Shown here piece by piece: positions 25,151-38,293 of a stretch of DNA of 64,000 bases (position 1 is the first letter of the stretch; each line of letters starts with the position of its first letter). The notes under the pieces were generated by a model. That model did no database searches. It was not told the origin of the DNA and saw nothing but the letters and a program-made list of their open reading frames with translations. The translations under genes and the position numbers were made by a program. The stretch is taken from assembly GCF_034366625.1 (NCBI RefSeq), contig NZ_JAXMIH010000023.1:186001-250000 (forward strand), given 5' to 3'. Source of the DNA: Prosthecobacter sp. (GTDB lineage: Bacteria; Verrucomicrobiota; Verrucomicrobiia; Verrucomicrobiales; Verrucomicrobiaceae).

Positions 25151-28100
25151 ATGCGCAAGCGCACGCTTTTGTGTCTCGTGGCGGCTGTACTGGCCGCTGC
25201 CTTTATTTTTTGGCCCCAACCGGCTGAAAAAACGGGCGTGGCCGCATCGAAGCGTGCAGGAATCAAAACGGCCCAACCCGGAGAGCGGGCACCGGAGGCT
25301 CCACAAGCTGCCGAGCGTCCGAAAATGGCTTCGCAGGCCGTTTCGGGCGATGTGCTGACGGATTTTGGTGCCTGGATGAAGCGCTATCTCGACGCATCGG
25401 AGACTGAACGCGCGGCCTTGGTGGTGGAGGGCATGAAACTGGCACGGGAACGGCGTCCGGTGTTCAAAGCGTTGATCATGGAGAATCCGCGGGAGGCGAT
25501 CCAGAAGGCGGTGCCGATGGTGGTGCGGCAGAAGCTGCCGCCGGAGATCGTTTCGCTGCTGGAAAAGCGGATGAATGAGATCGGTGCCATCCGCGTGATG
25601 CAGGGCGTGCCGTTGGACCCGAATGATCCGCCGGTGGCGACGTATCGCGAGGTGGAGTTGCAAAAGGGCGGGACGTATCGCGCTTATGTTTATGGTGAGC
25701 GTGAATTAAAGCTGACGTGGACGGCGGGCGCGTCTGTGAATGGCGTGGCGCTGGATTCGGAGTTCGCCATCAGCGATGAGCCGACGCGGCGGCTGGAGGT
25801 GGGTGAGATCCTGCCAGCGGGCAAGACGGTCGTGGCGAACTGCCCGGTGTCCGGCAAGTATGTCCTCGATCCCGAGGATGTGCCCGAGATCGTGCCGGAG
25901 AGCCTGCCAGCGGTGGAGACGCCGGTGGAGATCATCACGTTCTGCGATGGCTCGCACATCGCGATGCAAAACCAGACGATCCTTTATGGTGAAGGTGTCA
26001 CGGGTGGTTCGTTTGCATTTTCGGGCATCCTGCCGGGTTCACCGACGCCTGCGCTGGGGCAGGTGAAGGTGATCGTGCTGAACACGACTTACGCGGATCA
26101 AAACGCGCTGCCTTCCACCGAGGCGCAGCTTTACGCGACGCTGCGGGATGTGGCGGATCATTATTCAAAGGCCTCGTATGGCCGTCTGTCGCTCGTGGGT
26201 GTCGTGGCGCCACCGATCAAGCTGCCGCACAATGAGGCGTGGTATGTGAATCGTGACACGAGCAACGGCGGCGACATCGGCGGCACGAGCATCTCGATGG
26301 CGGACGCGCGTGCGGAGGCGAAGAAGCTCGGCTTCGACTGGAATGACTACGACTGTACGGTGATGCGGCACAATGGCGGGCCGGGCAGCTATGGCGGGCT
26401 CGGCGGTGGCAACACGGTGTGGTGCCGCAGTGATGGCGTGAGCCTCTGGGCGCATGAGATCGGCCACGCCTTCGGTCTGGGGCACTCGAACTTCTGGGAT
26501 ACGGCGGGCACCAGCAGCATCGGCAATGGCGCGAACCAGGAGTACGGCGACAGCTACGACATCATGGGCGGCGCAGGCACGACGGGGCATTACAACACGG
26601 CGGCGAAGAGCCAGATCCGCTGGCTGCCGAGCAGCTTTTTGCAGCCGGTGACGCAGAGCGGGCTGTATCGCATTCACGCGTTTGACCAAGGATCGCTCGA
26701 TGCGTCGAAGCGTTATGCGCTGACGATTCAAAAAGACGTGCAGCGCACCTACTGGGGCATGGTGAGGTCGCTGTTTGACAGCAATCCCTTCGTGAAAAGC
26801 GGTCTCGTTTTTGGCTGGAAGTTTCCCAACGGCGGCGGCGGAAATTTCCAACTCATCGACACGACGAATGGCTCGCCGTATGCCAAAACGGATGCGCCCA
26901 TCTCGCTCGGGGCCACGTTTGGCGACACAGAGAGCGGCATCTACGTCACCACGGTCGCAGCGAGTGACATTCCACGTTACATCGACGTGCAGGTGCATCT
27001 CGGCACCTTCCCCGGCAATCATGCGCCGACGATGACGCTGGCCGCCAGCGCGGAGGTGATCCCGCTGAACGGCACGGTGACCTTCACCGCGACGGCGAAT
27101 GATGTGGATGGCGATCCGCTGGCCTTTAACTGGCAGCACTTTGGCGGCGGCACGCAGATCGTCTCGCCGAACTCGAATGTGATCACACGCCAGTTCACGG
27201 CGGCGGGCACTTTCATCGTCACCTGCACGGTGAGTGACATGAAAGGAGGCACGGTGACGCGGAATCAGCTCATCACCGTCGGTTCGGTGACGACTTCCAC
27301 CATCAGTGGTCGCGTGACGTTGCTCGGGCAGGGTTTGTCAGACGTCGTCATCACGGCGAACAACGCCAACGGCGTCATCAGCGACGCGGACGGCTATTTC
27401 ACCATCCCAAACCTGTCAGCGAACACCTACACGCTCACGCCGCTGCTTTACGGCTACACTTTCAGTGAGTTGTTCAACAACAGCATCACCGTGGGGCCGA
27501 GTTTCAGCGGGGCGGACTTTGAAGCGACGGCGCAGAGCGTGGTGACGCTCACAGCAGCGAATCCGAATGCGAACGAGCTTTCGCCGGTGACACCGGGTGC
27601 CTTCCGCCTCACGCGGACGGGCGACATCTCGCAGGATCTCGTGGTGAATGTGAACTCCGCGCTCGGCGGTGCCACGAAGACGACGGACTACACCTTCACG
27701 CCGGATTATGCGACCGGCTCGCAGGGCTTCAGCACCTTCACCATCCCGGCGGACTCGGACGTGCTCGACATCGCCGTGACGCCGGTGGTCGATGCGACCA
27801 GCGAAGGGCCGGAGACAGTCATTTTACAGCTCGGGCCGGGCAATGGTTATCTCGTAGGCTCTGCATCGAGCGCCACGGTGGTGATCGCGGATGATGACAC
27901 CTCTTTGCCAAAAGTGAGCCTCACGGCGACGCGGAACTCCGCGCTCGAAAACATCGCCCCGCCGGGTCTTTTGACGATTTCGCGCACGGGGAGCACGGCG
28001 GCCGATTTGACCGCGAATTATGCTGTTTCCGGCACGGCAGCAAGCGGCGGAGATTACACGGCTCTGGCCGGAAATGTGGTCATTCCGGCCGGCTCGGCCT

Positions 28101-31100
28101 CGGCGACGGTCGAAATCGCTCCGCTGGACGATTCGGCCTCCGAATCGCTGGAGACGGTGATCGTCACGCTGAGCACGAATGCGGCCTACATCATCGATCC
28201 GCTCGCCACGGCAGCCACGACGACGATTTACGACGATGACATGCAAACCGTGAGCGTCACCGCGAGCGACGCGGAGGCCACGGAGATCGATCTGAGCGTT
28301 CCGGGAGCTGCGGCGGACACGGGCACCTTTTTGATCACCCGCAGCGGCGATACCAGCCAGGCGCTGACGATTTATTACGCCTTCTCCGGCGTGACTGGCA
28401 GCGGCATCATGGCGCTGCACGGCGTCGATTACGAGTGGATGCCCGGCGTCGTGCAGATCCCCGCCGGACAAAGCTCCGCTGCGATCACCATCGTGCCGCG
28501 TTTTGACGGCGTGGGTGAAGGCCAGGAGCGCTGCGTGCTGAATCTCGGCGCGAGCGCGACGAACTACATCCTCGGCACCAGCGCCACCGCCACGGTGAAC
28601 ATCAACGACAACGCCGCCGACCTTCCCTACATCGACGTGGTGAACACCGCGAATGGCGTGGAGCCGGCCACGAACGCGAACTTCCGCTTCTCGCTGCGCG
28701 GTGACGCGACCACGGACACGCCGGTGGTGGTGAATTTCACCCTCAGTGGCGCTGCGGTGAACGGCACGGACTACGACACGATTGGATGGTGGCTGCCGCA
28801 GAGCTCCGGCAGCACGGAAAACCTCCGCGCCATCTGGGCGGCGGACGCGGCGAACCTCTGGGCAGTCGGCGACAACGGCACCATCCTCAAAGGCGACGGC
28901 ACAAGCTGGACCGCGCAGACCAGTGGCACCACGCAGCACCTGCGCGCCGTGTGGGGCACGAGTGCGACGAATTTGTGGGCGGTGGGTGATGGTGGTGTCA
29001 TTTTAAAGGGCGACGGCACAAGCTGGGCCGCGCAGACGAGCGGTACGACGAACGCCCTGCGCGGCATCTGGGGCAGCAGCGGCACGAATGTCTTCGCCGT
29101 GGGTGATGGCGGCACGATTGTGCGCAGCACGAACGGCACCTCATGGGCCGCGAGCACCTCCGGTACCACGAATCAGCTCCGCGCGGTGCATGGCAGCGGT
29201 GTCAGCAATGTGTGGGCCGTGGGCGCGGCGGGCACGATCCGCTTTTGGAACGGCACGACCTGGGGATCGCAAACCTCCGGCATCACCACGCAGCTCAACG
29301 CGGTCTTCGCGGCCAATTCGACGAACATCTGGGCCGTGGGCGCGGGCGGAGTCGTTCGCAAAGGCAGCGGCACGACCTGGGCGTCTCAAACCTCCGCGAG
29401 CACGGCGGATTTGAATTCCGTGTGGGCCTCCAGCACGACGAACCTGCTCGTCTCAGGCTCCAGCAGCGCGCAGATGGTCAGCACGAACGGCACATCCTGG
29501 ACAAACGCGATGCTGAGCGCGCTGGGAACCTTCAATGGCGCCTTTGGCACCAGCAGCAGCATTGGCTGGGCCGTGGGTGATGGCGGCGCGATCTTCAAAC
29601 GCGACAGCACCACCGCCATCAACGTGCCGGGCAGCGTGGTGATCCCGCGCGGGGCCAGCACGCTCGATCTCGCCTTGCGCACGATCAATGACACCGACCT
29701 TGAGGACCTGGAGAGCATCGCTTTGAGCATCACACCCGGCGCGGCGTATCAAATCTTCCCTCCCAGCGCCTCCGCCAGCGCCTGGCTGCGTGACAATGAC
29801 AACGTGAACACACTCGTGGTGGACACACAGGTGGGCACCGGTGGTGCAATCAGCATCGCGGAGGGCGCATCGACCTCGCCGGTGAAGTTTTATATCTCCC
29901 GCCTCGGCAGCACGACGGCAGAGGTTATAGTGAACATCATCTACGGCGGCACCGCGACGATGACGGACGACTACACCGCGCCTGCCAGCGTCACCATCCC
30001 TGCCGGTGCGACGGGCGTGAATGTGCCCGTCACCATCGTCAATGACACGACGTTTGAAGGCACGGAGACGATCACCTTTGAGTTTGACGCGGGCAGTTAC
30101 GGGCGTGGCGTCGGCGCGGTGATGTACATTACGGACAATGACACCGCCACGGCCACCGTGGCCTTCTCAGCGCCCAGCTCCTCCGGTTTGGAAAATGCGG
30201 GCACGGTGAACATCCCGGTCACTCTCTCCGCCGCGCAGGCTGCGGATGTGACCGTGGAATATCAGACGAGCGGCAACACCAGCGGCAGCAGCGCTTCCTT
30301 CGGCAGCCGCGCGGTGCCCTACTGGGTGCGGGTGGTGAAGACCGGCAACTCGCTGGCCTTTTTCCAAGCCAACGATGGTGTGACGTGGACGCAGCGTGGC
30401 AATGCGGTGACGGTCTCCAATCTCGGCAGCAGCTACCTCGCGGGCCTCGCCTTTGCGCCAGGATCGACCACTCAATTCACCGCCGTGATGGATAACTTCA
30501 CGGTGAGCGATCTCTCGGCAGGCGGCAGCACCGGAGCGGAGACAGCGGTCAGCATCGGTACCGTCACTGGTGGCAGTTCCGTCGCCTCGGGCGTCTATAC
30601 CTTCACCAACTCCGGCAACGGCCTCAGCAACTCGACGACGGACAGCTTTCGCTATGTCTATCTGCCGGTCACCAGCTCCGCGAACTGCACCATCACCGCC
30701 CGCATCGTGAGCAATGGCAATCCGGCTGTCGTCTCCCGCGCAGGCGTGATGCTGCGCTCCAGCACGGCGGCGAATTCCGTCCACGCCTCCGCCTTCGGCA
30801 CGGGCCCGACCACCGGGGAGTATTACTCGATCTATCGCACCACCACGGCGGGCAGCGCGACGCTGAGTTCGTCTTTCACCAGCCTCATCCTGCCGATGTG
30901 GGTGCGTACCAGCCGCGTGGGTAATGTTTTCACCCAGTCCGTCTCCCGCGATGGAGCGGTGTGGACGAGTTTTGGCACCACGCCCAACATCGCCTTTGCG
31001 CCCAAAGTGCTCGCCGGACTCGCCGTCAGCGCGGTGGGTGACGGGCAGATCTCCACGGCCACCTTTGACAATTTCACGCTCGGCGGATCGCCTGTCACCG

Positions 31101-34100
31101 AGCTCGGTGGCCGCACGATCGGCTTTGTGAACGAGCAGGGCGGCGAAAGCCTCGCTGGCAGCGTGTGGACGGTGAACGGCAGCGGTGCAGGCATCGGGGG
31201 CTCCAATGACGAGGCGCATTTCCCCAGCATGGAGGTCACGGGTGACTTCACGCTCGCCGCACGCATCACCTCGCTCACCGGTGGCGGCACCAATGCCCAG
31301 GCGGGCATCATGGTGCGGGATGATCGCACGCATTATGCGCGGGCCGTTCACACCGGCTGGGTGAAAAACAACACCCTGGAGCAGCGCTACCGCCTGCAAA
31401 GCAACACCACCGCCTTCGGCTCCGGCGTGGACTACTCGCTGCCTGCAGCCGTGCTCACCATCCCTGCCGGCCAGACCACGGGCAACATCACTCTCACCGT
31501 CGTGAACGACACGATGGACGAGCCGGACAACCTCGTGACCCTGCAACTCCTCAACGCCAAGGGTGCCAACGTCGGCACGAACGCCTACCACGGCTTCACC
31601 ATCATCGACGATGACAATCCGCCCGCGCAGCCCTACGCGGGCTTTGCGACGGCCTCCAGCAGCGTCGTCGAAAGCGCGGGCACGGTGCAGATCGCCGTCG
31701 CTTTGAGCAGCCCGGCCACCGCGACGTGCAGCGTGGACTTCAGTACCACCGACGGCACCGCCACCCAGCCCGGTGACTACACCACCACGACCGGCACGCT
31801 CAACTTTGCCGCTGGTGAGAGCGTGAAATACATCTCCGTGCCTATCACCGATGATTCGACGCTCGAACCCGGAGAAAATCTCACCCTCACGCTCGCCTCT
31901 CCCGTCGCTTTGAACCTTGGCAGCACCAGCACGCACACGCTGACGATCACCGATGACGATTCGCCCGCCGTGAGCATCGTGGCGAATGATGCCAGCGCCT
32001 CTGAAAGCGGTGACGCGGGACAGTTCACCCTCACACGCACCGGCGACACGGCAGCCTCCCTCATCGTGAATGTCACCCGCAGTGGCACAGCAACCAATTC
32101 GACCGACTACACAAGCATCGCCACCACGCAGACCATTCCCGCCGGTCAGGCGAGCGTGGTCGTCAATGTCACTCCTGTTCAGGATGCGACCAACGAAGGC
32201 AACGAGACCGTCATCCTCACCGTGGCCACTGGCAGCGGCTATGTCATCGGCACGCCGAGCGCAGCCACCGTCACCATCGCGGATGATGATCGCAGCACGG
32301 TCACCATCACCGCGAATGATCCGACGGCATCTGAAAGCGGTGACGCAGGTCAGTTCACCGTCACCCGCACCGCGCCGACCAATGTGGCCCTCACCGTGAA
32401 TATCACCATCGCCGGCACGGCCACGAACACGACAGACTATACCACCGTCACCACCACGGTCTCCTTTGTCTCGGGCGATGTCTTCAAAACCGTCAGCATC
32501 ACGCCTGTCGATGATGGCATCACCGAAGGCCCCGAGGATGTCACGATCTCGCTCGCCAGCGGCAGCTACGACATCGGCGCTGATTCCTTCGACAATGTCA
32601 GCATCACCGACAATGACAATCCGCCCACCGTCTTCATCGGCAGCCCCACCGCGCAGGCACCGCTCATCGCGGCGGCGAATGGCGTCATCGTCAGTGCCCA
32701 GGTGAGCGATGACGGCTTCCCAAATGCTCTCGCCACGACCTGGAACTGCGTGAGCGGTCCCGGCGTGGCCACCATCGAGTCGCCGAGTGCCACCACGACC
32801 GCAGTGACTTTCTCCACCCCAGGAACCTATGTTTTGCGCATCAGCGCCACCGACGGGCAATTCACCGTGGGTGATCAAGTCACCGTCGTGGTCGGCAGCG
32901 GCCTCGTGGCATCGAATTGGATCACCCAGGACATGGGGCCTTCATCCTCGCGTCGCGGCCAGGGACTCGAATACGGCGGCCTTTTCAGCGTCACTGGAAC
33001 CGGAGCCGGTTACGCGGCCACCAGCACCGATCAGGCTCACATCATGGTCCGCAGCGCCGTCGGCGATGGCAGCGTGGTGGCGAAACTGACGAGCTTTTCG
33101 ACCACGGCGGCCCTCGCAGGCGTCACCATTCGCGATTCGCTCGCACGCGGCTCGAATCGCGCCGTTTTGGGTTTTGTGCCGGGCGCAGGCTTGCAGTTCC
33201 GCACCCGTGCCGCGAGCGGAAATGACACCAGCGTCGCCGCTGCAGCTCCTGCCTTGCCTTTCTGGCTGAAACTCGAGCGCAATGCCACCACGAACGAAAT
33301 CAGCGCCAGCTACAGCACCGATGGCACTGCCTGGACCGCAGTCGGCACGCCCGTCGTCATCCCTCTGCTCAACTCGAATGCGCATTACGGCCTCACCACG
33401 ACCAACAACAGCACCGCAGGCACTGCCACGGCCCTCTTTGACAATGTCACGCTCACGCCAACACCCAGCGGCCCCGCCTTGGTCAATGAAGACAGCGGCA
33501 CCGCGCCCAACACCGCCGGCAGCGCCAGTTTTGACGGCACCACTTACACCGTCAACGGCCCCACCACCGGCTACTTTTACGGCTGGCAATATTACGGCGA
33601 CATGGTCATCACCGCCCGGCTGAATACCTTCAGCAGTGGTGCCGGCAGCAGCAGCGGCGGCATCCGCATCGCCGAGAGCATCGAAAGCGGAGCCCAGCTC
33701 CACCTCGGACGCATGCCCACCGGCAGCTACAGCGGCTACTACTGGACCAGCATCGCCGGTGGCAGCGGTGGCGGCGTCCCCAGCAGCATCGCCGCCGGGA
33801 ACTGGATGCGCATCGTGCGCCGTGGTAATGCCATCACTGGCTACCGCGCCACGCACAACAGCACCACGAACAATCCCAACGCCTGGACACAAATCGGCCA
33901 GCCACAGACCATCATCATGACCACGCCCGTGTGGGCTGGCTTCTTCGTCAACAACGCCAGCGGTGCCACCGGCACACAAAACACCTGCACCTTCACCCGC
34001 CTCACCATCGAGCCGCTGCACAAAGCCCCCGTCATCGCCGCCACTGCCGGAGGAAGCATTTCGCCAGTCACCCTCGACGGCACCATCACCGACGACGACC

Positions 34101-34675
34101 TCCCCGCCACTCCGACCAGCCTCTGGACACGCCGTAGCGGCCCCACCGGCATCGTCTTCGCCAACGCCACCTTTGCCGACACCACTGCCTCCCTCACCGA
34201 AAGCGACACCTTCGAACTCCGCCTCACTGCGGATGACACCGGCACCGTGAGCTTCTTTGACCTCAATCTGACAGCCTACACCACGCCCTTCGCCCAGTGG
34301 CTCGATCAAAGCGGCACCGGCAACGAAAACAACCAGCTCGTCGAAGCCACCGCCGACGCCGACGGTGACGGCCTCGTCAACCTCCTCGAATACGCCACCG
34401 GCACCAACGGCACCGTGAACAACACCAGCCCGCAGATCATCGAGTTTGCCCCCTCGAGCGGCGAAACCTATCTGCGTCTCTCCATTTCGAAAAACCCCGC
34501 CGCCACGGATGTCTTGTTTGAAGTCCAGGCCACCGGCAATCTGGCCGACCCGCTCAGTTGGAGCAGCGCCGGCCTCGTCATCGAGGAGGACACGCCCACC
34601 ACGCTGCGGGTGCGTGATGTCGTGCCTGCATCCGCAGGCCAGTCGCGTTTCATGCGGGTGAAGGTGACGCAGTAG
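25151..34675 (+). CDS. Giant secreted multidomain protein: metzincin-type protease, Calx-beta array, inserted propeller and jelly-roll domains
   Basis: Predicted 3174 residues, with a signal or anchor at 1-20 and a Lys/Pro-rich linker. The zinc-protease region is about 280-620: HExxHxxGxxH at 435-445 (HEIGHAFGLGH) and Met472 in YDIMGG as a plausible Met-turn, as in M6/M11-like proteases. Then come a PKD domain (623-710), a carboxypeptidase-regulatory-like domain (717-775) and about nine Calx-beta domains starting near 796, 919, 1031, 1158, 1553, 1666, 2161, 2271 and 2381. The fourth is split by seven 39-residue AVGDxGTI repeats (1212-1490) and the sixth by laminin-G/DUF1349-like blocks (1714-2090). 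PKD-like and DUF1349-like domains follow, ending with DADGDGLVNLLEYATGTN near 3070 and no PEP-CTERM. It probably acts at the cell surface in adhesion or polymer degradation. Confidence 0.9.
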   Translation: MRKRTLLCLVAAVLAAAFIFWPQPAEKTGVAASKRAGIKTAQPGERAPEAPQAAERPKMASQAVSGDVLTDFGAWMKRYLDASETERAALVVEGMKLARERRPVFKALIMENPREAIQKAVPMVVRQKLPPEIVSLLEKRMNEIGAIRVMQGVPLDPNDPPVATYREVELQKGGTYRAYVYGERELKLTWTAGASVNGVALDSEFAISDEPTRRLEVGEILPAGKTVVANCPVSGKYVLDPEDVPEIVPESLPAVETPVEIITFCDGSHIAMQNQTILYGEGVTGGSFAFSGILPGSPTPALGQVKVIVLNTTYADQNALPSTEAQLYATLRDVADHYSKASYGRLSLVGVVAPPIKLPHNEAWYVNRDTSNGGDIGGTSISMADARAEAKKLGFDWNDYDCTVMRHNGGPGSYGGLGGGNTVWCRSDGVSLWAHEIGHAFGLGHSNFWDTAGTSSIGNGANQEYGDSYDIMGGAGTTGHYNTAAKSQIRWLPSSFLQPVTQSGLYRIHAFDQGSLDASKRYALTIQKDVQRTYWGMVRSLFDSNPFVKSGLVFGWKFPNGGGGNFQLIDTTNGSPYAKTDAPISLGATFGDTESGIYVTTVAASDIPRYIDVQVHLGTFPGNHAPTMTLAASAEVIPLNGTVTFTATANDVDGDPLAFNWQHFGGGTQIVSPNSNVITRQFTAAGTFIVTCTVSDMKGGTVTRNQLITVGSVTTSTISGRVTLLGQGLSDVVITANNANGVISDADGYFTIPNLSANTYTLTPLLYGYTFSELFNNSITVGPSFSGADFEATAQSVVTLTAANPNANELSPVTPGAFRLTRTGDISQDLVVNVNSALGGATKTTDYTFTPDYATGSQGFSTFTIPADSDVLDIAVTPVVDATSEGPETVILQLGPGNGYLVGSASSATVVIADDDTSLPKVSLTATRNSALENIAPPGLLTISRTGSTAADLTANYAVSGTAASGGDYTALAGNVVIPAGSASATVEIAPLDDSASESLETVIVTLSTNAAYIIDPLATAATTTIYDDDMQTVSVTASDAEATEIDLSVPGAAADTGTFLITRSGDTSQALTIYYAFSGVTGSGIMALHGVDYEWMPGVVQIPAGQSSAAITIVPRFDGVGEGQERCVLNLGASATNYILGTSATATVNINDNAADLPYIDVVNTANGVEPATNANFRFSLRGDATTDTPVVVNFTLSGAAVNGTDYDTIGWWLPQSSGSTENLRAIWAADAANLWAVGDNGTILKGDGTSWTAQTSGTTQHLRAVWGTSATNLWAVGDGGVILKGDGTSWAAQTSGTTNALRGIWGSSGTNVFAVGDGGTIVRSTNGTSWAASTSGTTNQLRAVHGSGVSNVWAVGAAGTIRFWNGTTWGSQTSGITTQLNAVFAANSTNIWAVGAGGVVRKGSGTTWASQTSASTADLNSVWASSTTNLLVSGSSSAQMVSTNGTSWTNAMLSALGTFNGAFGTSSSIGWAVGDGGAIFKRDSTTAINVPGSVVIPRGASTLDLALRTINDTDLEDLESIALSITPGAAYQIFPPSASASAWLRDNDNVNTLVVDTQVGTGGAISIAEGASTSPVKFYISRLGSTTAEVIVNIIYGGTATMTDDYTAPASVTIPAGATGVNVPVTIVNDTTFEGTETITFEFDAGSYGRGVGAVMYITDNDTATATVAFSAPSSSGLENAGTVNIPVTLSAAQAADVTVEYQTSGNTSGSSASFGSRAVPYWVRVVKTGNSLAFFQANDGVTWTQRGNAVTVSNLGSSYLAGLAFAPGSTTQFTAVMDNFTVSDLSAGGSTGAETAVSIGTVTGGSSVASGVYTFTNSGNGLSNSTTDSFRYVYLPVTSSANCTITARIVSNGNPAVVSRAGVMLRSSTAANSVHASAFGTGPTTGEYYSIYRTTTAGSATLSSSFTSLILPMWVRTSRVGNVFTQSVSRDGAVWTSFGTTPNIAFAPKVLAGLAVSAVGDGQISTATFDNFTLGGSPVTELGGRTIGFVNEQGGESLAGSVWTVNGSGAGIGGSNDEAHFPSMEVTGDFTLAARITSLTGGGTNAQAGIMVRDDRTHYARAVHTGWVKNNTLEQRYRLQSNTTAFGSGVDYSLPAAVLTIPAGQTTGNITLTVVNDTMDEPDNLVTLQLLNAKGANVGTNAYHGFTIIDDDNPPAQPYAGFATASSSVVESAGTVQIAVALSSPATATCSVDFSTTDGTATQPGDYTTTTGTLNFAAGESVKYISVPITDDSTLEPGENLTLTLASPVALNLGSTSTHTLTITDDDSPAVSIVANDASASESGDAGQFTLTRTGDTAASLIVNVTRSGTATNSTDYTSIATTQTIPAGQASVVVNVTPVQDATNEGNETVILTVATGSGYVIGTPSAATVTIADDDRSTVTITANDPTASESGDAGQFTVTRTAPTNVALTVNITIAGTATNTTDYTTVTTTVSFVSGDVFKTVSITPVDDGITEGPEDVTISLASGSYDIGADSFDNVSITDNDNPPTVFIGSPTAQAPLIAAANGVIVSAQVSDDGFPNALATTWNCVSGPGVATIESPSATTTAVTFSTPGTYVLRISATDGQFTVGDQVTVVVGSGLVASNWITQDMGPSSSRRGQGLEYGGLFSVTGTGAGYAATSTDQAHIMVRSAVGDGSVVAKLTSFSTTAALAGVTIRDSLARGSNRAVLGFVPGAGLQFRTRAASGNDTSVAAAAPALPFWLKLERNATTNEISASYSTDGTAWTAVGTPVVIPLLNSNAHYGLTTTNNSTAGTATALFDNVTLTPTPSGPALVNEDSGTAPNTAGSASFDGTTYTVNGPTTGYFYGWQYYGDMVITARLNTFSSGAGSSSGGIRIAESIESGAQLHLGRMPTGSYSGYYWTSIAGGSGGGVPSSIAAGNWMRIVRRGNAITGYRATHNSTTNNPNAWTQIGQPQTIIMTTPVWAGFFVNNASGATGTQNTCTFTRLTIEPLHKAPVIAATAGGSISPVTLDGTITDDDLPATPTSLWTRRSGPTGIVFANATFADTTASLTESDTFELRLTADDTGTVSFFDLNLTAYTTPFAQWLDQSGTGNENNQLVEATADADGDGLVNLLEYATGTNGTVNNTSPQIIEFAPSSGETYLRLSISKNPAATDVLFEVQATGNLADPLSWSSAGLVIEEDTPTTLRVRDVVPASAGQSRFMRVKVTQ

Positions 34676-37237: not shown

Positions 37238-38293
37238 ATGCCACGCAGCATCCGCATTCAATCCGCCGGGGCTTATTACCACGTCATGGCCCGTGGCAAC
37301 CGGCGCGAGGAAATCTTCCACGATGACGATGACCGGCGCTTCTTTCTGCACACGCTGAGCCAGGCCTGTGAGATGACCGGCTGGCACGTGCAGGCTTGGG
37401 TGCTGATGAGCAATCACTATCATCTCTTCCTCCAGACGCCGGAGCCGAACCTTGTGGCGGGCATGGCTTGGCTGCAAAACACGCTCACGCGTCGTTACAA
37501 CGTGCGGCATCGAAAGTGGGGGCGGCTGTTTGGCGACCGCTACAAAGCAGTGGTGGTGGAGGGCGAGGACCGTTACCATTACCAGACGTTGATGGACTAC
37601 ATCCACCTCAATCCCGTGCGGGCGCGGATCATCCAGCCCAAGGTGGGCCAGAGTGTGCTGGACTATCCATGGAGCAGCCTCGCGGGCGGTTACGCGCTGC
37701 CGCCCAGGAAGCGAGCGAAGTGGCTGGATGTGGAGAGCGGGCTGAAGGCCTTCAGCTTGCCGGACACGACGCCGGGCCGCCGCCGGATGGTCGAGCGGCT
37801 GGACCGGCGCGCGGTGAGCGAGGAAATCAAGAGCTGCGGGGTGCCGCCGCAGTCCGAGGAGATGGATGCGCGCAGCAGCCACCTGCGGCGCGGGTGGTAT
37901 TGGGGCACGCAGGCCTTCGGCGAGGCGATGCGCAAGCTGGCCGGGGCACTGGTCAGTAAACGTGCGCCCAAGTCACGCAGCTACCGGGGTAATCCGCATG
38001 TGGCCGGGCACGGGGAGAAGCAGGCGGAGGACTGGCTGAAGGAGGGACTCAAAGCCGCCGGACTGAAAGCGTCGGAGCTGAGGACGCTGAAGGGATCGGA
38101 CCCGCGGAAGCTGTTGCTGGCGGACCTGCTGTGGCGGCACACAACGGTGTCACAGGAATGGCTGGCGGAGAAGCTGGCGATGAAGTCGGCGGCGAACGTG
38201 AGCCAGCAGTTGCGGCGTCTGGACCGTAAGAAGGCGCGGGTAGGACTGCCGGAGGCGATGCGGAGCTTTTTGGACGAATCCACACCGTCATGA
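37238..38293 (+). CDS. REP-associated tyrosine transposase (Y1/HUH) with C-terminal helix-turn-helix
   Basis: Predicted 351 residues. The Y1 nuclease domain is about 1-170: the HUH motif is His60-Tyr61-His62 in MSNHYHLFLQ, and the catalytic Tyr is probably Tyr121 in DYIHLNPVRA. The start MPRSIRIQSAGAYYHVMARGNRR is diagnostic for RAYTs (TnpA-REP). The C-terminal part is longer than in typical proteobacterial RAYTs and ends with a helix-turn-helix-like segment (VSQEWLAEKLAMKSAANVSQQLRRL). It cuts and rejoins single-stranded DNA at hairpin ends, presumably the flanking repeats. The frame is intact, so it may be active. Confidence 0.93.
   Translation: MPRSIRIQSAGAYYHVMARGNRREEIFHDDDDRRFFLHTLSQACEMTGWHVQAWVLMSNHYHLFLQTPEPNLVAGMAWLQNTLTRRYNVRHRKWGRLFGDRYKAVVVEGEDRYHYQTLMDYIHLNPVRARIIQPKVGQSVLDYPWSSLAGGYALPPRKRAKWLDVESGLKAFSLPDTTPGRRRMVERLDRRAVSEEIKSCGVPPQSEEMDARSSHLRRGWYWGTQAFGEAMRKLAGALVSKRAPKSRSYRGNPHVAGHGEKQAEDWLKEGLKAAGLKASELRTLKGSDPRKLLLADLLWRHTTVSQEWLAEKLAMKSAANVSQQLRRLDRKKARVGLPEAMRSFLDESTPS

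Follow-up and report, generated by a model that had tools for sequence, protein, structure and literature searches.

Probable insertion of a permuted DUF1349-like jelly roll into a Calx-beta loop, followed by its duplication in place

How might a protein domain come to be split by a block that begins with the second half of another domain, continues with a complete copy of it and ends with its first half? This question is raised by a long open reading frame (ORF) in a 64,000-nucleotide stretch of Prosthecobacter sp. DNA (contig NZ_JAXMIH010000023.1, positions 186,001 to 250,000; hereafter the window), in which the sixth Calx-beta domain (Calx-beta 6) is interrupted by DUF1349-like sequence. 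We consider it probable (roughly 0.82) that a permuted DUF1349-like jelly roll sits in a loop of Calx-beta 6 and that its duplication in place created the half-whole-half appearance. The Calx-beta domain breaks off after VEYQTSGNTSGS (residues 1702-1713) and resumes with GVDYSLPAAV at residue 2092, with 378 residues between, all in one open frame. The exact edges of the insert are uncertain by several residues because the length of the left edge differs among relatives. In window coordinates, the features are:

25151 to 34675, plus strand: ORF of 3,174 amino acids with a metalloprotease-like N-terminal part, PKD, repeated Calx-beta domains and two C-terminal DUF1349-like domains
30149 to 30289, plus strand: N-terminal half of the split Calx-beta domain, residues ~1667-1713, placed by sequence and structure models
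30290 to 31423, plus strand: the whole insert, 378 residues, 1714-2091
30299 to 30520, plus strand: A_out, C-terminal half of the putative outer permuted jelly roll, residues ~1717-1790, natural-order profile 113-190
30560 to 31081, plus strand: B (C_in + A_in), complete natural-order jelly roll, residues ~1804-1977, profile 13-185
31115 to 31414, plus strand: C_out, N-terminal half of the putative outer permuted jelly roll, residues ~1989-2088, profile 8-101 or 8-108
31424 to 31621, plus strand: C-terminal half of the split Calx-beta domain, residues 2092-2157, placed by sequence and structure models
32912 to 34030, plus strand: two tandem natural-order DUF1349-like domains near the C-terminus, used as comparison domains

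We analyzed the insert using a natural-order profile of 193 positions that was built from 79 domains near the C-termini of homologues (43 first and 36 other copies) and contained no insert sequence. The insert matched this profile three times, in the order 113-190, 13-185 and 8-101. The middle domain thus has its halves in natural order, and the outer one does not (113-190 before 8-101). This bears out the first-pass annotation, which had described Calx-beta 6 as split by about 378 residues running from a C-terminal half through a whole domain to an N-terminal half. Taken alone, A_out and C_out each matched about half of the natural profile (48.0 and 65.8 bits), as might be seen if they were ordinary, separate half-domains that have degenerated by domain atrophy and have no partner. 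When rejoined in natural order, the two halves gave one match (15-187, 115.8 bits), and joined in the permuted order of the gene they gave two (45.2 and 64.3 bits). Because the rejoined halves yield a single match, they complement each other as parts of one domain whose order has been swapped; judged by sequence, the outer domain is circularly permuted. Atrophy is very improbable given this complementarity, the similar break in all 49 inserted regions described below, the purifying selection acting on the halves and the permuted fold seen in two predicted models.

Pfam recognized both families in a 510-residue slice across the region: DUF1349 (PF07081) at 42.9 bits against a cut-off of 32.4, in three stretches, and Calx-beta (PF03160) at 33.7 bits against a cut-off of 27, in two. 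The DUF1349 score of a homologue slice with a single unit (L115) was 23.7 when taken alone, which is under the cut-off. The enclosed domain of the window sits in sequence between the halves of another domain, as in nested insertions of the A1-B1-C-B2-A2 type. Antisense to the insert there is an open frame of 903 amino acids (window 30167-32878, minus strand), which is probably a shadow of codon bias.

We propose that a circularly permuted DUF1349-like (concanavalin-A-like) jelly roll entered the loop of Calx-beta 6 that precedes the (G)VDY...IPAG strand. In such a domain the C-terminal half (A) would come before the N-terminal half (C), the old ends would be bridged by a linker (the A-to-C joint) and the new ends would be adjacent. 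A permuted jelly roll would suit a host loop because its new ends lie side by side. The ancestral insert would have been one A-C unit, and in the lineage of the window this unit would have been duplicated in tandem to A-C-A-C, which makes the middle C-A look like a normal domain and leaves the outer A and C looking like orphan halves. In the predicted fold, the outer A and C would pair to make a permuted jelly roll whose linker holds the inner C-A, itself folded as a normal jelly roll, so that the nesting has three levels. Later, the array would have shrunk to one unit in some lineages. The direction and number of these events are what we infer from the comparisons below. As for function, we suggest that the jelly rolls may be lectin-like modules, attached through two strands to the side of a stalk of Calx-beta domains.

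Homologues carry the site in three states. The insert is absent from 35 of them, and in 33 of these the Calx-beta match runs unbroken where it would be expected (e.g. L149 and L150), so that the uninterrupted relatives that the first-pass annotation proposed to look for do exist; the other two are L141, where the frame is cut, and L152, whose match lies elsewhere. A single A-C unit occupies the same place in eight loci (L070, L115, L116, L117, L130, L195, L196 and L201), of which L115 and L116 are on one-contig genomes; L233 repeats L195 over the compared region and the two were counted once. In all 49 inserted regions (41 double, including the window, and 8 single) an A half comes first and a C half last. 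The C-half matches end at positions 102-113 of the natural profile in every region, and the A-half matches start at 86-118 in 48 of them and at 71 in L195. On a profile of uninterrupted Calx-beta domains the left flank runs up to positions 40-51, and the start of the right flank falls between 5 and 42, the early starts extending back into the C half. When 387 genomes of the phylum were searched with a single form, 22 gave matches at E <= 1e-12, and only G431, the record of L233, matched over the full 305 residues.

The double form is widely retained. Searching the 68 genomes of the family with the 511-residue region gave matches at E <= 1e-40 in 35 (own genome included), and both junctions are kept in 30 relatives that were aligned with the window (35-79% identity). 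Architecture strings derived from half-domain profiles placed the double form in 40 loci besides the window, a count that covers the subset of loci carried forward and includes some paralogues from one genome. One of these loci (L173) belongs to the named strain Brevifollis gellanilyticus NBRC 108608, and the titles of the named records that have one or two units include Verrucomicrobia, Verrucomicrobiaceae, Prosthecobacter, Brevifollis, Spartobacteria, Chthoniobacteraceae and Opitutae, among others. In comparisons with the 9 closest of the 30 aligned relatives, nonsynonymous divergence (dN) was 0.08-0.28 and synonymous divergence (dS) 0.43-1.61 over four segments, with dN well under dS in the Calx halves, in both outer halves and in the middle domain. 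The split domain and its insert are under purifying selection.

These data also bear on misassembly, which the first-pass annotation had named as a rival. An assembly artefact that joined pieces of an ordinary tandem array would find its only footing in the repeat-rich sequence and in the state of the genome (30 contigs, 6.6 Mb). It is hardly credible when the same junctions recur in the 30 aligned relatives, the same order in the 40 other loci, the double form in the named Brevifollis strain and purifying selection over the region. We read the nesting as probably old and maintained by selection, not as a product of faulty assembly. Short FGS-containing edges had been suggested to mediate recombination. 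FGS at the left edge is present in 1 of the 31 aligned rows, that of the window, and 14 of the 31 have [FY]GS at the right edge; since the left-edge FGS is peculiar to the window while the insert is far older, these edges are not supported as a driver and the suggestion was dropped.

Further observations concern individual copies. In L080 (G020:C585) the orthologous gene lies in two frames with a break near the middle of the insert, by frameshift or assembly error, and for this reason the locus was left out of the half-domain sets and trees. The genome of the window holds more insert-like stretches in large open frames, at G000:C6:731094-732923 and G000:C8:249709-250257.

Structure prediction across the region, which had likewise been proposed as a check, was run with AlphaFold2. 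The 510-residue model of the double form reached a predicted local distance difference test score (pLDDT) of 89.6 and a predicted template modelling score (pTM) of 0.81, and that of a single form 86.7 and 0.66. In both models the flanks are predicted to form together one Calx-beta domain: the double model matched Calx CBD1 3gin_B (Z 16.6, 1.6 Å, 113 residues aligned, model 13-503) and the single model the CBD1 entry 3ead_B (Z 15.6, 1.6 Å, 110 aligned). The best-ranked jelly-roll match was 1ajo_A in both cases, with Z 11.9, 3.5 Å and 164 residues aligned over model residues 59-431 for the double form, followed by concanavalin A lectins at Z 8 to 9, and with Z 11.6, 3.2 Å and 160 residues aligned over 51-232 for the single form. 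Foldseek alone gave weak E-values (best 3.5e-3). Because the 164 residues aligned over 59-431 roughly equal the two outer halves in size, A_out and C_out are predicted to pair in the double model.

After duplication, the same four halves might instead be arranged serially: A_out would fold with C_in and A_in with C_out, giving one permuted jelly roll after another and no enclosing outer domain. The single-form model suggests that an A-C unit is able to fold alone, and local contacts would be identical in the serial and nested forms. The 1ajo_A match to the double model spans 59-431, however, and a serial pair would be expected to stop near model residue 240. We therefore regard a serial arrangement as distinctly unlikely and favor the nested one.

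We next consider the history of the insert. A backbone tree, drawn with midpoint rooting, was made from 1,090 N-terminal residues in 84 rows (41 double, 35 uninterrupted and 8 single), without the N-terminal fragments L085-L114. The three states need 6 changes on it, and insert versus none needs 2. The single forms L115 and L116 are the first to split off within the inserted group. L070, L130 and the Opitutae singles sit inside groups of double forms and are for that reason read as contractions. Half-domain relationships were addressed by a small tree (21 loci, 75 A rows and 74 C rows) and by approximately unbiased (AU) tests on 15 loci (57 A rows and 55 C rows), with L115-L117 among the loci left out. 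In the 15-locus subset the insert A halves form one clade versus the C-terminal A halves with a support of 95.

These trees bear on an insertion in two steps, in which a complete jelly roll (B) from a different source would later have entered the linker of a single permuted domain. Grouping the inner A half with the C-terminal A halves was rejected (AU p 0.021 and 0.011), so that the inner A belongs with the insert A halves; moreover, duplication takes one event and needs no precise landing. The inner C half provides room for the two-step route: it is not tied to the outer C by the tree, and its placement with the C-terminal C halves was not rejected (p about 0.6). On balance we consider two steps unlikely and favor duplication of the A-C unit.

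The halves present in L070 and L130 are of the inner-A and outer-C types, which is what the loss of one A-C period would leave behind. This is no proof of duplication, because recombination between like halves looks the same however the double form arose. Profile score differences of the single forms might be taken as a further sign of contraction, but natural C-terminal halves are themselves shifted that way (for A, medians of 14.0 and 3.8; for C, 13.9 and 9.7). Measured against this baseline, the differences are clear only for L070 (+29.3 and +78.3) and L130 (+30.8 and +47.8), and those of L195, L196 and L201 are not decisive.

Several points weigh against the history that we propose. The single form L117 groups on a long branch with uninterrupted homologues, so one gain is not shown. 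In the C-half tree the insert halves come together at a support of 78, but groupings with the C-terminal copies were not rejected, and the tree does not settle where the inner C half came from. When L115-L117 are included, their C-terminal A halves fall inside the insert group, and the insert halves of L115 and L116 cluster with the C-terminal halves of their own lineage, which suggests either gene conversion within the gene or a separate origin by another insertion. Contraction is weakly resolved, as outer A with single A (p 0.09) and inner C with single C (p 0.117) were not rejected. On the structural side, the pairing of the outer halves was read from the alignment range and length of a predicted model and not from coordinates; the pTM of the single model is modest, with low-confidence stretches at 1-4 and 234-239; and middling Z scores are common, VIA re-aligning only the top 1000 chains of Foldseek.

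As to the source of the unit, the first-pass annotation had taken the insert for a half-domain-offset slice of a tandem array. The offset stood up; the tandem slice fared less well. The A-to-C joint in the insert has a median of 16 (range 4-35, n=89; residues beyond the profile ends) and the joint between the two tandem C-terminal domains one of -1 (range -1 to 17, n=45; normalised to the profile ends), a comparison that favors short values for the tandem, since those same domains, with padding, supplied the profile. On this biased comparison the insert joint is the longer, and a slice of the C-terminal tandem was not supported as donor. A tandem-array slice is still a possible first insertion, and the half-domain trees (21 loci) name no donor.

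To our knowledge, domain insertion and circular permutation are usually visible only as finished products. Here, uninterrupted, single-unit and double-unit versions of one site survive, and it would become possible to test directly how a nested, permuted architecture is put together and taken apart again. Inserted permuted domains and nested insertions are already known, and the graded series from empty to single to double is the interesting part.

PMC3320104 describes swaposin, a circularly permuted saposin inserted in plant aspartic proteinases, as an example of permutation by duplication. Like the present insert, it is a circularly permuted domain inside another protein; unlike it, swaposin is a helical saposin in a protease, whereas here a beta jelly roll lies in a Calx-beta loop, and the present case offers single and double forms with uninterrupted relatives. 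Bacterial RNA polymerase insertional domains (HABAS and others) are inserted permuted domains according to PMC11515920 and PMC13114784, with other folds and another host; the stem 'duplicat' is absent from the main text of PMC11515920, and PMC13114784 was not searched for it. Three-level nesting of the A1-B1-C-B2-A2 type, e.g. in ndhH, is treated in PMC13114784 and is common to both cases, but here the middle level is, on our reading, circularly permuted relative to natural-order relatives in the same protein. The predicted folds agree with the families of insert and host, DUF1349/concanavalin-A-like jelly rolls and Calx-beta; what sets the present case apart from ordinary members is a permuted outer DUF1349-like domain and a discontinuous Calx-beta domain. 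The best-ranked jelly-roll matches of both models, 1AJO (an engineered circular permutant of beta-glucanase) and concanavalin A (a permuted lectin), are free-standing and not inserted, and a common fold or topology shows no function. In the literature searched, which mostly excluded subscription journals, we found no account of the present case or of duplication of a permuted unit inside a host.

Tandem duplication of a permuted inserted domain may be a simple route to nested domains, a generalization that we offer tentatively and at somewhat less than even odds. If it is true, each extra A-C copy would add a complete natural-order domain inside the split outer one and leave the host loop undisturbed, and the array could shrink again through recombination between like halves. 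If it is general, some nested architectures would stem from in-place duplication and not from repeated insertion. There is also a trap for annotation: profiles report half domains and a whole domain, but according to the predicted model there would be two complete jelly rolls, of which one is permuted and interrupted by the other.

A second insert interrupts Calx-beta 4 of the same protein:

28784 to 29620 (approximate ends), plus strand: WAVGD-repeat, propeller-like block that splits Calx-beta 4 after the DY motif, patchy in relatives

The block appears propeller-like from its repeats. Among the 36 full-gene loci (L049-L084), 33 could be scored; 13 carry the insert and 20 do not, 19 of the latter with a gap of 1-41 residues and L079 with overlapping matches. 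The inter-strand loop, called C-D, has thus taken up two inserts that are unrelated to each other within a single protein, one on either side of DY. The first-pass annotation was right that the loop tolerates insertions, as the 20 relatives lacking this one attest, and that both lie in one inter-strand segment; they do not share one point, the Calx-beta 4 insert standing after DY and the Calx-beta 6 insert before it.

In a Pfam scan, the 3,174-residue host protein matched Calx-beta (8 stretches), DUF1349, PKD and, weakly, metallopeptidase families. It contains HEIGHAFGLGH, which we take to be a zinc metalloprotease motif, and is probably secreted. About 2.6 kb downstream of the ORF, at window 37238-38290, lies an IS200-like transposase gene (Y1_Tnp).

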